NCBI GenBank assembly: GCA_026713545.1
Contig: JAPOOG010000040.1
Location: 1 to 64,000, forward strand
Reading direction: 5' to 3'
Source of the DNA: Bryobacterales bacterium
Lineage (GTDB): Bacteria > Acidobacteriota > Terriglobia > Bryobacterales > UBA6623
DNA length: 64,000 nucleotides
Made by a program: the position numbers and the translations under genes. The notes beneath the pieces are model-generated. The model saw only the letters and a program-made list of their open reading frames with translations, searched no databases and was not told the DNA's origin. Each line of letters starts with the position of its first letter. The stretch's first letter is position 1. This document shows positions 11,676-20,272 of the stretch, piece after piece.

Positions 11676-14812
<3,137 letters not shown>

Positions 14813-14816
<4 letters not shown>

Positions 14817-15334
14817 CAAACTAGGCTCTCCAATTCAGATAAGTACGAATAGTAACTCTCAGGTTCCATCTGATACAAAATCTCACTTGGTCGAAATTCA
14901 GCATCAAAAATACGAACTACACTATAGTTTTCATCCACATAATCGTTGAATTCTGGATTGGCTTCGTACTTTGGAAATGACGAATCTGGTACTAACAGGT
15001 CTTGTTGATGGATTCGATAAAGGAAGCCGACAATTGTATCCGCTGCTTCAGCCGCCAGAAATGCTTGTGCTGGTCCCATCTGCGGTTGTGGGCCGCCATA
15101 CCCATGGGAGGCAAAACCACATCTGTTGCGCAGTTCGCAGATACCTTGAACAGCAGTTCGTAGACCATCAAGTGTTTGAGTAAGGCTTTTTCGGACTTCT
15201 ACCGCCTGACTCGCCTTGGGTGGCAACAACGGTAAATGTTGTCTAACTTTGCGGAACAGCTTCGGAAGGTCATCGATTTGACTAAAGTCAATTTTTCTCT
15301 CCTTCAAAATTGTCCGACAAGTACTCTCGACCAA
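14813..15334 (-). CDS. Abi_C-domain (abortive infection) ORF between hsdS and hsdR, possibly 5'-truncated
   Basis: The product matches the Abi_C domain found at the C-terminus of abortive-infection family proteins: [20 protein letters not shown], then [32 protein letters not shown] and FASHGYG. From TTG 15334 it is 173 residues, shorter than I expect for full-length members. In-frame protein-like sequence (VDGIEQAVIERPSLAIDLAK) continues upstream, then an in-frame TAG occurs at 15406-15404. An in-frame ATG lies at 15451, just past hsdS. So either translation starts at TTG 15334 or the 5' end has been lost. Base composition is clearly more AT-rich than in hsdM or hsdR. The stop overlaps the hsdR start, implying coupled translation. 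Confidence 0.75.
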
Positions 15335-15473: not shown

Positions 15474-17063
15474 TCAGTCATTTGGCTCTATTTTTTTGGA
15501 AAACCTTTTCACATCGTCCATTCTCAACTCTCCTGACACTAACTTCGGCAACATGACGTCTCGCAAGCCGGCAAGGGTGCGGGATGCTTTGGCCATTCTG
15601 ACTTGCTGGTCGTCGCAAGCTGCCATTAATCGAGAATATGCTCCAGCAATCGTAGATCTTGGGACAATGAGTCGATGCGATTTAAGGACCTGCTGGTTGA
15701 TGTTCTGCTGGGCTGCTCCAACTGCAATAGACTTCAAAGTGCCTCTCGCCTCTATAAGCATGCGTCTGAGAAAAGGCACACCATATTCCGACTTTACGAT
15801 AAGGCCAGCAGTTGCTTGGTTTGCTGTTCCTGGCTTTTCTAGCACTCCCAGCCTCCCCACTGTTGGCGATGCATACAGAGCAAACAGGATTGTTCCAGCA
15901 GGCCATAGCTTGGCGGACGAGTTGCTGATCGCTGCCTCAGTGATATATTCCTCAGAGTCAATGAGCGGACCATCAAGGAGTTCTCCTGTTTTGTACCAAG
16001 GAATCGTACTGTGCTCCCAAAAGGCTGAATCCTTTCGAGATGGTGTCCCCCCGCTTGTAATTGAGACACAGAGGCTCTCGACATCGGCCACCCCCCACCC
16101 CTCCGGGATCTTGCCGAGTTCAGAATCAACGAGGCGGCCGGGGAAAAGGTCGGCGAGGGGTTGGGGGAGGCCGGGGTCGCGGCCGGCCATCTTGGCGCGG
16201 ACGGGGTCGAATTCGACGAACCAGGACTTGAACAGCGCCCGCGCCATCGCCTCCAGCGTCTCGTTCATCCGCCGGTTCAACTCGATCTTGTCGTCCAGCG
16301 TCCCCAGGATGTGGGCTATGGCGCGTTGTTCGGGGAGGGGAGGGACCATTACTGGTATCGAAGAAAGAATGGTCTGATTAAGTAGGGGTTGACCGGAACC
16401 CGCTCTCCAATCATTCAATCGAAGTGTCTGGAGGAGATAAAACAGGAACTTCGCATCATTCCCTTTGGCGGCGTTTGCGCGGATAGCATTGTCTGTCACC
16501 CAACAATTTTTATCGCTGTAGTGCAGAGACCCACAGTAGCTGCCAACACGCCCGATGACAGTGGTGTTAGGTGGGGCATTCGTTTCATCAGAAAAGCCAA
16601 TAATCCCATTTGAGCCGTAGACGGGATAGGGAAAACCGTCAGTCCGTTCGGGACTTGTCTTCCCATTAGAGAACAATAGCAAATTGCCAAGCTTGCTCTT
16701 GAGCCACTCGTCTGCCGCACCCGCCCTCTTCCCTTCCAGCCTTCCGCTGTCTCCCGCTACCAGCACCACATGATGCCGCTCGATCTCACGGTGGAATCGT
16801 TTCGGCAGGCGCGTCCAGTCGCGCGCCTCGACCAGGAAGGGAATGGTTGACTCCCGCACGGCTTCCTCGAAATCCCCCAAACGGCCGATGGGGATTTCCT
16901 TCAGGTCCGGCCCGCGCAGCACGAGGTCGAGATCGCTGCCGTCGTGGCTCCGCCCGCTCACGCGGCTGCCGCAGGCCCAGACCTCGACGCCGGGCAGGTG
17001 TTCCTGCAACAGCGCTTCCAGCACTTGCCGGTGCTTCGGGCGTAGATGGAGGCGATCAGCCAT
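15474..17063 (-). CDS. hsdS: fusion of a minimal nucleotidyltransferase domain and the type I specificity subunit
   Basis: Residues 1-105 are a minimal nucleotidyltransferase (MNT) domain of the DNA polymerase beta fold, with ACGSRVSG (G32-S33) and SDLDLVL (D44, D46); the third acidic position appears as E79 in FLVEARDW. The rest, about 118-529, is a complete HsdS with two target-recognition domains. The first begins WLKSKLGNLLLFSNG, the central coil contains LPEQRAIAHILGTLDDKIEL, the second domain begins PEGWGVADVESLCVSITSGG, and a closing coil ends in LRDVMLPKLVSGELR. HsdS positions HsdM and HsdR on a bipartite DNA site. ATG 17063 overlaps the preceding fragment by 8 bases; the frame is open to 17090. 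The MNT domain might be a regulatory or antitoxin-like module; that is inference. Confidence 0.9.
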   Translation of the reverse strand: MADRLHLRPKHRQVLEALLQEHLPGVEVWACGSRVSGRSHDGSDLDLVLRGPDLKEIPIGRLGDFEEAVRESTIPFLVEARDWTRLPKRFHREIERHHVVLVAGDSGRLEGKRAGAADEWLKSKLGNLLLFSNGKTSPERTDGFPYPVYGSNGIIGFSDETNAPPNTTVIGRVGSYCGSLHYSDKNCWVTDNAIRANAAKGNDAKFLFYLLQTLRLNDWRAGSGQPLLNQTILSSIPVMVPPLPEQRAIAHILGTLDDKIELNRRMNETLEAMARALFKSWFVEFDPVRAKMAGRDPGLPQPLADLFPGRLVDSELGKIPEGWGVADVESLCVSITSGGTPSRKDSAFWEHSTIPWYKTGELLDGPLIDSEEYITEAAISNSSAKLWPAGTILFALYASPTVGRLGVLEKPGTANQATAGLIVKSEYGVPFLRRMLIEARGTLKSIAVGAAQQNINQQVLKSHRLIVPRSTIAGAYSRLMAACDDQQVRMAKASRTLAGLRDVMLPKLVSGELRMDDVKRFSKKIEPND

Positions 17064-17238
17064 TGCGCTGGAATCCGTCGTTGTATACATTCCGGCTCTG
17101 GCCCAGCAGATAAGGCCCTTTCTTCAGGTATACGTCCTTGCCGCCACATGGCGTCGCTCCGCTACCGATCTTGGCGCATACATCACCGAGCGCAACCTCG
17201 CGCCAGCCGTCCGCTGCCGCTTTTCCCCGTATCGTCAT
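17056..17238 (-). pseudogene. 60-codon hsdS-like N-terminal fragment
   Basis: The ORF MTIRGKAAADGWREVALGDV continues with CAKIGSGATPCGGKDVYL, typical of the start of an HsdS target-recognition domain, and stops after NVYNDGFQRNG. HsdS proteins normally exceed 380 residues, so this is a stub. Its stop codon lies inside the start of the MNT-HsdS gene (8-base overlap), and it begins 14 bases after vapC. It may be the leftover of an older hsdS displaced by insertion of the MNT-HsdS gene, or a short leader used for translational coupling. No frameshifted continuation was found. Confidence 0.7.
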
Positions 17239-17252
17239 GCGCCGGCCTGCCC

Positions 17253-17675
17253 TCAGCAGCCCGTATCCGGCGGGCCGAAGGGGTTGACGACGGGAACGCC
17301 CGCCGGTTCGAAATGGCGGGTGTTGCGGGTGACCACGGTCAGGCCGTGCTCCAAGGCCGCCGCGGCGATGAGGAGGTCGTAGCTGTTGTGGCCCAAGCCG
17401 GCGCAGAGCCGCCCCCAGCGCCGCGCCGTGGGCACATCGACGGGGAGAACGCGGTCTCCGTACCATGTCAGGATGCCGGCCAGCCATGCGGCCAGGTCCT
17501 GGGCGAAAGACAGGTTTCGGCGAGTCTGCCGGCCAATTCCCCGCTCGATTTCTCCAACGGTTACCACGCTCAAGAAGAGGTCGGAGGCCCGTTGCGCGGA
17601 CAACCAGCGAGCAGCCTCGCGATGCCGGTCCCCTCTCCGCAATACCGAGATCGCATCGGTGTCCAAGAGGTACAT
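17253..17675 (-). CDS. vapC: VapC-type PIN-domain toxin
   Basis: The 140-residue PIN domain carries the acidic residues of this RNase family: D5 and D7 in MYLLDTDAIS, E42 in VTVGEIERG and D100 in GHNSYDLLIAAAA, followed by TVVTRNTRHF. VapC toxins cut tRNA or rRNA and stop growth unless bound by antitoxin. The start ATG shares one base with the stop of the antitoxin gene (TGATG). I took ATG 17675 because the domain begins exactly there and the antitoxin frame ends there; the longer open frame upstream only shadows the antitoxin gene. It lies inside the restriction-modification island between hicB-phd and the hsdS fragment. Confidence 0.92.
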   Translation of the reverse strand: MYLLDTDAISVLRRGDRHREAARWLSAQRASDLFLSVVTVGEIERGIGRQTRRNLSFAQDLAAWLAGILTWYGDRVLPVDVPTARRWGRLCAGLGHNSYDLLIAAAALEHGLTVVTRNTRHFEPAGVPVVNPFGPPDTGC

Positions 17676-17929
17676 CACAAGTCCAACGGACGGAGTTCCG
17701 ACGGCATGCGCTCGAATTCCTGACCGTCCTGCGGGATGGCCAAGAGGTGTTCGACAAAGCTGGGCGCGCCGGCCTTCTCCGCGAGGCGAAGGCGCTGGTA
17801 GTCCTCGACCGCCAACACGACGACGGCGGGAGCGCCGCGGCGGGTGACGGTCTGGGGTTCTCCGCCGAGGGCGGCATTCACCAGGGCGCTGAAACGGTTC
17901 TTGGCGTCTTGCAGGGCCCACTCGGCCAT
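17675..17929 (-). CDS. Phd/YefM-type antitoxin
   Basis: The product of about 84 residues begins MAEWALQDAKNRFSALVNAA and continues with QTVTRRGAPAVVVLAVEDYQ, the usual Phd fold: an N-terminal DNA-binding half and a toxin-binding C-terminal tail. It should neutralise the PIN toxin encoded next and repress the shared promoter. The start at ATG 17929 is preferred over the open frame to 17947 because family members begin at this position. About 106 bases separate it from hicB, enough for its own promoter and operator, though no clear operator palindrome was found. Confidence 0.9.
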   Translation of the reverse strand: MAEWALQDAKNRFSALVNAALGGEPQTVTRRGAPAVVVLAVEDYQRLRLAEKAGAPSFVEHLLAIPQDGQEFERMPSELRPLDL

Positions 17930-18035
17930 AGTCCACCATCCTTGCAAGCTGTTCTGGCTAGATTATTACGCTAGCCGGCAGTGCTGTCAACGGAGCGCTT
18001 CCTGACCTCGGGCTCCAAGGTGTCGGCATGTTCCC

Positions 18036-18257
18036 CTATCCGGCGACAGCGGCCACGTCGACTACGGTTGCGCTGCACTGCGGTTCCGGCACCGGCTCGC
18101 CGTGTTCGCGCAAGCTCTCGATGTGAAACTCGATCGCCTGGCGCATCTGCGTGACCGCCTCCTCCCTGGTAGCTCCGGTTGCGACGCAGCCGGGCAGATC
18201 GGGAACGTAGGCCGCATAGTTGCCCGGCGCCTTTTCGATCACGATGGTGTATTGCAT
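18036..18257 (-). CDS. hicB: HicB-type antitoxin
   Basis: The 73-residue product MQYTIVIEKAPGNYAAYVPD continues LPGCVATGATREEA and AIEFHIESLREHG, the partial RNase H-like fold of HicB antitoxins. No C-terminal DNA-binding domain is present, so it is the short form. It starts 7 bases after hicA on the same strand, the usual order. Role: binding and blocking the HicA mRNA interferase. Confidence 0.93.
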   Translation of the reverse strand: MQYTIVIEKAPGNYAAYVPDLPGCVATGATREEAVTQMRQAIEFHIESLREHGEPVPEPQCSATVVDVAAVAG

Positions 18258-18649: not shown

Positions 18650-20272
18650 TCATCGTGCGCTCTCCTGATCAACAATAAACCCCAGGCTCTTCAGGTTCGC
18701 CTCGATGGCGGCGTCCAGCTTCGCGGACTCGTCCTGTTGCTGTCGCCACTGGGCGGTAAGCCGGGCCATCTTCTCCTCGAGCGGCTCGCCGTCGTCCTCC
18801 TGCACTTCCGCGCCGACATAGCGGCCGGGAGTCAGCACGTGGCCGTGCTTGCGGACCTCTTCCAGCGCCGCGCTCTTGCAGAAGCCCGGAACGTCGCCGT
18901 AGGCGTCCGCGCCTTCGCGCCAGGCGTGATAAGCGCCCGCGATGCGGCCGATGTCATCGCCGGTCAGCTCTCGGTGGGTGCGGTCCACCATGCGGCCCAT
19001 CTTGCGGGCATCGATGAACAGGATTTCGCCCCTTCGGTCGCGCAGTTTGCCGCCCTTGCGGTCGCGAGCGAGAAACCAGAGACAGGCGGGGATCTGAGTG
19101 GAGTAGAACAGTTGCCCCGGCAGGGCGACCATGCAGTCCACCAGGCCTGCCTCGATGAGGCTTTTTCTGATCTGGCCCTCGCCGGACTGGCTGGACGACA
19201 TCGAGCCGTTGGCGAGCACGAAGCCGGCGGCGCCGGCGGGCGCCAAGTGGTGCACCATGTGCTGCACCCAGGCGAAGTTGGCGTTGCCCCTGGGCGGGGC
19301 GCCGTACTGCCAGCGCTTGTCGTCGGCGAGGCGTTCGCCGCCCCAGGAGGAGACGTTGAAGGGCGGATTGGCGAGGATGAAGTCGGCCTTGAGGTCGGGG
19401 TGGCGGTCGTTGTGGAAGCTATCGCCGTGGGCGATCTGGCCCTCGATGCCGCGGATGGCGAGGTTCATCTTCGCGAGCCGCCAGGTCGTGTAGTTGGACT
19501 CCTGGCCGTAGATCGAGATGTCGCCCCGCGCGCTTTTGGGCAACTTACCGCCATTGCCGTTGCCGGTGGCGTGGGCGTTGATGAACTCGATCGATTGCAC
19601 GAACATGCCCGAAGAACCGCAGCAGGGGTCGTAGACGCGGCCCCGGTAGGGCTCCAGCATCTCGACCAGAAGCTTGACGACGCAGCGCGGGGTGTAGAAC
19701 TCGCCGCCCTTCTTGCCCTCGGCGCTCGCGAACTGCGACAGGAAGTACTCGTAGACGCGGCCGAGCACGTCGCGGGAGCGGGCGTCCGCGTCGCCCACCT
19801 TGATGTTGCTGACGAGGTCGATGAGTTGGCCGAGCCGCTGCGTGTCGAGCGCGGGGCGGGCGTAGTCCTTGGGCAGCACGTCCTTGAGCACCCGGTTGTC
19901 GCGCTCGATCCCGCCCATGGCGTCGTCGACGAGCCGGCCGATGGCGGGCTGCCTCGCCTGATCCTTCAGATGCGCCCAGCGGGCCTCGGGCGGCACCCAG
20001 AAGATGTTCTCGGCGATGTATTCGTCGCGGTCCTCGGCGGCCTCCTGGCCCCATTCGGCGAGAACCGCCGCGCGGCGCTCCTCGAAGGCATCGGAGATGT
20101 ACTTCAGAAAAATGAGGCCGAGAACGACGTGCTTGTATTCGGCGGCGTCCATCGAGCCGCGCAGGGTGTCGGCCATGCGCCACAGTTCGGCTTCATAGCC
20201 GGTCACCGCGCCCTGGGCGTCCGTTTTCACGTCGGGATCGGATTTCGCCTTCTTCTTGCGTCCTCGCGCCAT
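18650..20272 (-). CDS. hsdM: type I restriction-modification DNA methyltransferase (M subunit)
   Basis: HsdM transfers methyl groups from S-adenosylmethionine to adenine N6 at sites chosen by HsdS. Motif I reads [13 protein letters not shown] (D215 region) and motif IV is [10 protein letters not shown] (NPPF at 302-305), marking an N6-adenine enzyme. The N-terminal helical domain ([20 protein letters not shown]) is typical of HsdM, and 540 residues is normal length. It is the first gene of the leftward island. Directly upstream are an 8-base-arm palindrome and a 9-base-arm hairpin, then the right flanking repeat. Two toxin-antitoxin pairs separate it from hsdS and hsdR, an unusual split of the hsd genes. 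Confidence 0.95.

Follow-up and report, generated by a model that had tools for sequence, protein, structure and literature searches.

The restriction operon and its fused specificity gene

The window, which is the whole stretch of 64,000 nucleotides that was analysed, encodes a type I restriction operon in which the specificity gene hsdS begins with a nucleotidyltransferase (MNT) domain. The fused gene, MNT::HsdS, is a single unbroken minus-strand frame of 529 aa (17063 to 15474), as determined by an ORF check of the window. A further in-frame ATG lies upstream at 17090; the starts of the homologues align with the ATG at 17063. The gene is flanked by hsdM and hsdR, and the features of the region are included in Table 1. 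The PIN/Phd-YefM pair (17253-17947) lies in the area where relatives carry a HEPN gene. The Abi_C ORF is shorter by ~50-70 N-terminal residues than its homologues in loci L072, L026, L051, and L032 and is probably a truncated abortive-infection gene, judging by these alignments. A scan for promoters and terminators gave results no better than those from shuffled sequences, except for one 11/12 site at 17990-17962 on the minus strand.

Table 1. Positions in the window of the fused gene's parts and of the neighbouring genes
Feature	Position	Strand	Location and evidence
hsdM	18650..20272	-	upstream of MNT::HsdS; N6_Mtase 350 bits, HsdM_N 99.8 bits
HicB-like antitoxin	18036..18257	-	no obvious HicA beside it; Pfam
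Phd/YefM antitoxin	17675..17947	-	Pfam
PIN (VapC-like) toxin	17253..17675	-	between hsdM and hsdS; Pfam
N-terminal fragment (60 codons) of another hsdS allele	17059..17238	-	in the place of the HEPN gene; joins the MNT start at an ATGG microhomology (AATGGCTGA)
MNT (HI0073/MntA-type nucleotidyltransferase) domain	16749..17063	-	residues 1-105; GSX10DXD and E79; 1no5, E 4.8e-35, TM 0.93
Disordered linker	16713..16748	-	residues 106-117; pLDDT <50
Complete HsdS (TRD1, conserved helices, TRD2, distal helices)	15474..16712	-	residues 118-529 and stop; Pfam, PADLOC, AlphaFold2, Foldseek
AbiJ C-terminal (Abi_C, PF14355) HEPN-type ORF	14813..15334 (open to 15403, no ATG)	-	between hsdS and hsdR
hsdR	11676..14819	-	downstream of MNT::HsdS; Pfam, TIGR00348 574 bits

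An earlier note on this DNA had described the gene as an MNT domain joined in one frame to a complete HsdS with two TRDs, and its frame, coordinates, and domain assignments proved correct. The Pfam model NTP_transf_2 (PF01909) matches residues 12-64 with 21.9 bits (cut-off 21) and Methylase_S (PF01420) matches the protein with 115 bits. The spacing of the MNT motif is exactly GSX10DXD (G32-S33, D44, and D46) and E79 provides the third acid, each at the position that the note had assigned to it. In a profile search of the PDB the best match to the MNT domain was HI0073 (1no5), followed by the antitoxins 8xeh and 5yep. The domain scored 18.5 bits against the NCBIfam MntA model NF047752, for which the cut-off is 60; its closest solved relative appears to be HI0073 and not the MntA of that model. 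The structural model that the note had called for was obtained with AlphaFold2, using 31 fused homologues as input, and has a mean pLDDT of 90.6 with low confidence at residues 106-117 and the last residues. Foldseek placed the MNT part within 1.2 Å of 1no5 (the TM score in Table 1 is over the target) and matched the HsdS part to the type I S subunits 1yf2 and 1ydx.

The HsdS part has the two TRDs and conserved helices of a type I specificity subunit and is co-encoded with hsdM and hsdR, to which the fusion adds an N-terminal nucleotidyltransferase domain of ~105 residues. The MNT part has the GSX10DXD motif, the third acidic residue, and the HI0073/MntA fold of an MNT antitoxin. The fusion of an HI0073-type MNT, a linker, and a full two-TRD HsdS in one frame is confirmed.

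Spread of the fusion and its HEPN partner

Approximately 85,000 species genomes were scanned and 80 homologous loci were retained, in which fused and unfused genes were called by profile searches. The MNT domain is in the same frame as HsdS at 42 of these, which answers the earlier note's proposal to survey how often the fusion occurs. The fused loci are found in records titled Gemmatimonadetes, Nitrospira, Chloroflexi, Bryobacterales, Rhodothermales, Alpha- and Gammaproteobacteria, and Cyanobacteria, among others. In an alignment of 48 MNT domains, mostly fused, G32 and D46 are present in all 48, S33 and D44 in 47 each, and an acidic residue (D or E) occupies position 79 in 47. The note had named two outcomes that would speak against the fusion, catalytic acids that are not conserved in fused forms and homologues that are always separate genes joined here by a sequencing error, and neither was found.

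Zymomonas mobilis ATCC 10988 also has a single-frame MNT::HsdS, on its plasmid pZMOB01 (a complete sequence), where the genes are hsdM, a gene annotated as 'HI0074 family nucleotidyltransferase substrate-binding subunit', MNT::HsdS, and hsdR. A sequencing error is ruled out as the source of the fusion because the identical join occurs in unrelated phyla and on this complete plasmid. The Zymomonas protein is labelled 'restriction endonuclease subunit S' in RefSeq, and many genes with this label may conceal an antitoxin enzyme. The PADLOC specificity-subunit profile PDLC03138 (485 positions) covers the MNT domain alone, and the architecture therefore already sits in the databases, unremarked. 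In 297 genomes sampled evenly from the phylum of the window, HI0073-type MNT domains (E <= 1e-12) were found in 25 genomes with 28 matches in total. Four of these are fused to HsdS according to a profile check (the window, G220, G281, and G110) and the rest are mostly in short frames, so the fusion is a minority form of the HI0073-type MNT family. At one further locus (L107:692-2290) a 533-aa frame other than HsdS carries an HI0073-type MNT as its C-terminal part; PF08780 HEPN was not found in that genome.

Clustering of the neighbouring genes showed that one family is restricted to the fused genes (22 of 23 loci). All 18 aligned members match PF08780 (NTase_sub_bind), the HI0074 HEPN family, and the nearest solved structures are 1jog (HI0074) and then 8xdj, a HEPN toxin. 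These HEPN partners are single-domain proteins of ~140 aa. Where 450 nt or more of DNA could be read ahead of the gene, profile searches found a PF08780 HEPN as the immediate upstream neighbour in 33 of 39 fused cases; the count for unfused hsdS was 0 of 32 (Fisher p 1.8e-14, for rows that are not independent). Because the rows are related, independent pairs were compared on the hsdM tree; in six pairs the HEPN follows the fusion or ties, none runs in the opposite direction, and the median p of the sign test is 0.06. The usual gene order in the fused family is hsdM - HEPN - MNT::hsdS - hsdR. In 24 of 33 measured pairs the two genes overlap, with 3-16 nt shared between the end of the HEPN and the start of the MNT, and the RX4HXY motif is intact in 28 of the 33 HEPNs. 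With the HEPN tightly linked upstream of fused genes and seen at none of the 32 plain-HsdS loci, the fused MNT is well supported as the antitoxin member of a HEPN-MNT pair (HepT/MntA, type VII) whose carrier is HsdS. The link to HEPN-MNT antitoxin biology that the note had drawn is borne out; it had overlooked both the upstream HEPN toxin gene in relatives and the loss of this gene in the window.

The note had also suggested that the MNT part may modify or gate the restriction complex. No sign of this was found; what is conserved alongside the fusion is the HEPN gene. The persistence of the MNT catalytic residues at loci without a HEPN, including the window, would be expected if the domain acted on the complex independently of any HEPN. 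However, the HEPN linkage is near strict, plain HsdS relatives next to closely related hsdM genes have no MNT, and at one locus without an adjoining HEPN (L006:6034-7584) the fused MNT carries a D44 to V substitution and appears from its sequence to be a decaying antitoxin domain on HsdS. We regard an action on the complex itself as very improbable.

Variants of the pair were observed at several loci. The RX4H motif is gone from three HEPNs that belong to the subclade of the window (L009:5463-6005, L014:5361-6005, and L023:5505-5963) and that retain the family profile and position beside a catalytically intact MNT::HsdS. The loss of the motif suggests that these pairs may no longer be toxic and that they were perhaps domesticated. 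At L060:5124-8389 two tandem HEPN-MNT modules precede hsdS, the first consisting of a HEPN without RX4HXY and a stand-alone MNT and the second of an intact HEPN and MNT::HsdS.

Loss of the HEPN gene in the window

In the window, a six-frame profile search of the hsd region with filters off found no PF08780 HEPN, which excludes a HEPN gene hidden by a frameshift. Neither the gene nor any piece of it was found on the other contigs of the genome, and as a control the same family was found in 11 of 15 genomes tested. The adjacent RX4HXY HEPN that characterises HepT/MntA systems is thus present in the fused family and missing at this locus. The Abi_C ORF was considered as a substitute HEPN. It belongs to a HEPN family different from that of the missing partner, and its close homologues adjoin both plain (L072, L026, and L051) and fused (L032) HsdS genes; therefore, Abi_C is not tied to the MNT domain.

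The place of the HEPN gene is taken by the hsdS fragment, which resembles the TRD1 starts in L064, L005, and L050 and reaches the MNT start codon. In the HEPN-bearing locus L094 the sequence ...GCGAACG is followed at the junction by ATGGCTGACCGC (also given as HEPN...GCGAACG followed by ATGGCTGAC), and in the window ...CAGCGCA is followed by ATGGCTGATCGC (also given as hsdS...CAGCGCA followed by ATGGCTGAT). ATGG is common to both junctions, which suggests recombination at a short match, and the HEPN gene was probably replaced by the hsdS fragment in this way at the MNT start codon. The genome is a draft of 170 contigs and the join sits on a 4-base match, as might be seen if an assembly had misjoined the fragment to MNT::HsdS while the real genome retains the HEPN. 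We think such a chimera unlikely, as no piece of a HEPN lies on any other contig and the HEPN has been lost from the same place at other loci, where ~the last 20 codons (L003, a C-terminal remnant) or ~the first 25 residues (L022, an N-terminal remnant) are left.

The MNT catalytic residues are kept without a HEPN at the fused loci L003, L022, L037, L070, and L075 as well as in the window. Across the sampled loci the HEPN was lost repeatedly with the MNT retained and the converse was never seen; toxin loss with antitoxin retention fits what is predicted for a toxin-antitoxin pair. With the HEPN replaced by an hsdS fragment and none found in the genome, the window copy is most likely an orphan antitoxin domain, predicted to be catalytically competent, on an otherwise complete HsdS. 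Whether this domain is by now a non-functional relic that survives through its join to a needed HsdS is evenly balanced in our estimate. The missing HEPN, which is also missing at six other fused loci, and a Cys at MNT position 31, where homologues mostly have Tyr or Phe, are consistent with a relic. Every motif position and the predicted fold are nevertheless intact, so any decay of the orphan domain would be recent or slow. HEPN-less loci with an intact MNT fit either a recent loss or a second role for the MNT. The window is a decayed instance and is less important than the family.

A proposed toxin guard in type I restriction systems

We consider it likely that in this family an HI0074/HI0073-type HEPN-MNT pair is lodged in the operon of a type I restriction system, its antitoxin borne by HsdS and the release of its toxin putatively coupled to the complex, and that the window holds an orphaned copy. 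MntA relies on its GSX10DXD motif to AMPylate the RX4HXY tyrosine, which silences the HEPN RNase (PMC7641770). Both motifs are present in the fused family, which makes the same AMPylation chemistry the best guess. By analogy with PrrC-EcoprrI, the most likely mechanism is that the MNT AMPylates the HEPN RNase, whose release would depend on the condition of the restriction complex. An antitoxin on HsdS would be made and kept only within the M2S/R2M2S complex. If the complex were lost or disabled, newly made HEPN would consequently stay unmodified and the cell would arrest. The outcome would be a back-up or addiction switch like that of PrrC with EcoprrI. The earlier note's idea of a built-in immunity switch is accordingly plausible, if unproven, for the fused family, and falls short at the window, where the toxin half is absent.

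It has been proposed that HEPN proteins linked to restriction systems are PrrC-like back-up effectors that are freed when restriction is neutralised (PMC3710099), and MNT::HsdS would be the direct physical form of this link. More broadly, there may be a widespread class of type I systems with a toxin guard, in which HsdS bears an AMPylating antitoxin and phage inhibition or loss of the complex unleashes the HEPN RNase of the operon; we offer this tentatively, as a proposal whose chances fall just short of even. On this reading, a switch for cell suicide or dormancy would be built into many restriction systems. The recurrent fusion of an antitoxin to HsdS with the toxin gene alongside links HEPN-MNT to anti-phage restriction, and Zymomonas mobilis ATCC 10988, with its plasmid pZMOB01, is a cultured organism in which the guard idea is directly testable.

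The main and serious rival to the guard mechanism is plain addiction, in which HEPN-MNT is a selfish stabiliser of restriction operons that senses nothing of restriction, and the fusion arose neutrally between adjacent genes when the MNT stop was lost. Stand-alone HEPN-MNT pairs do occur in the same restriction operons alongside a second HEPN with MNT::HsdS (L034, which matches L095, as well as L096 and L097). On plasmids of Acetobacter ascendens the HEPN, MNT, and hsdS are three separate, consecutive genes in that order. The MNT tree forces at least five changes between fused and separate states on well supported branches, in a tree whose few columns leave the details weak. These observations agree with addiction, whereas the persistence of the fusion over long distances and in many phyla does not, since a neutral read-through should be disrupted more often. 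Addiction without sensing has, in our judgement, a substantial minority chance of being correct. The guard mechanism remains our preferred reading.

Neither the fusion of an MNT or MntA domain to HsdS nor the regular occurrence of a PF08780 HEPN in type I operons is described in PMC3710099, in PMC2701414, or elsewhere in the open-access full text searched. The novelty of the arrangement is provisional, as the search covered mainly open-access papers. The family shares the GSX10DXD motif, the HI0073 fold, and, in relatives, the adjoining RX4HXY HEPN with type VII HepT/MntA systems of the HI0074/HI0073 subtype (PF08780/PF01909). It differs in the fusion of the antitoxin to HsdS, in the HEPN missing from the window, and in gene order, as the HEPN lies upstream of the MNT, the reverse of the usual order in MNT-HEPN dyads (PMC3710099). 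PrrC, an anticodon nuclease silenced by the type I enzyme EcoprrI, is likewise a HEPN effector within an hsd operon that is restrained by the complex, as would be the case here. Unlike PrrC, which carries an N-terminal ABC-ATPase, the single-domain HEPN partners have none and restraint would act via the MNT borne by HsdS. A possibly parallel case among the profile matches of the MNT is Cmr1-MntA (PDB 9z7q), in which, going by the molecule name only, an MntA-type antitoxin is joined to an immune-complex component, a CRISPR subunit taking the place of HsdS.
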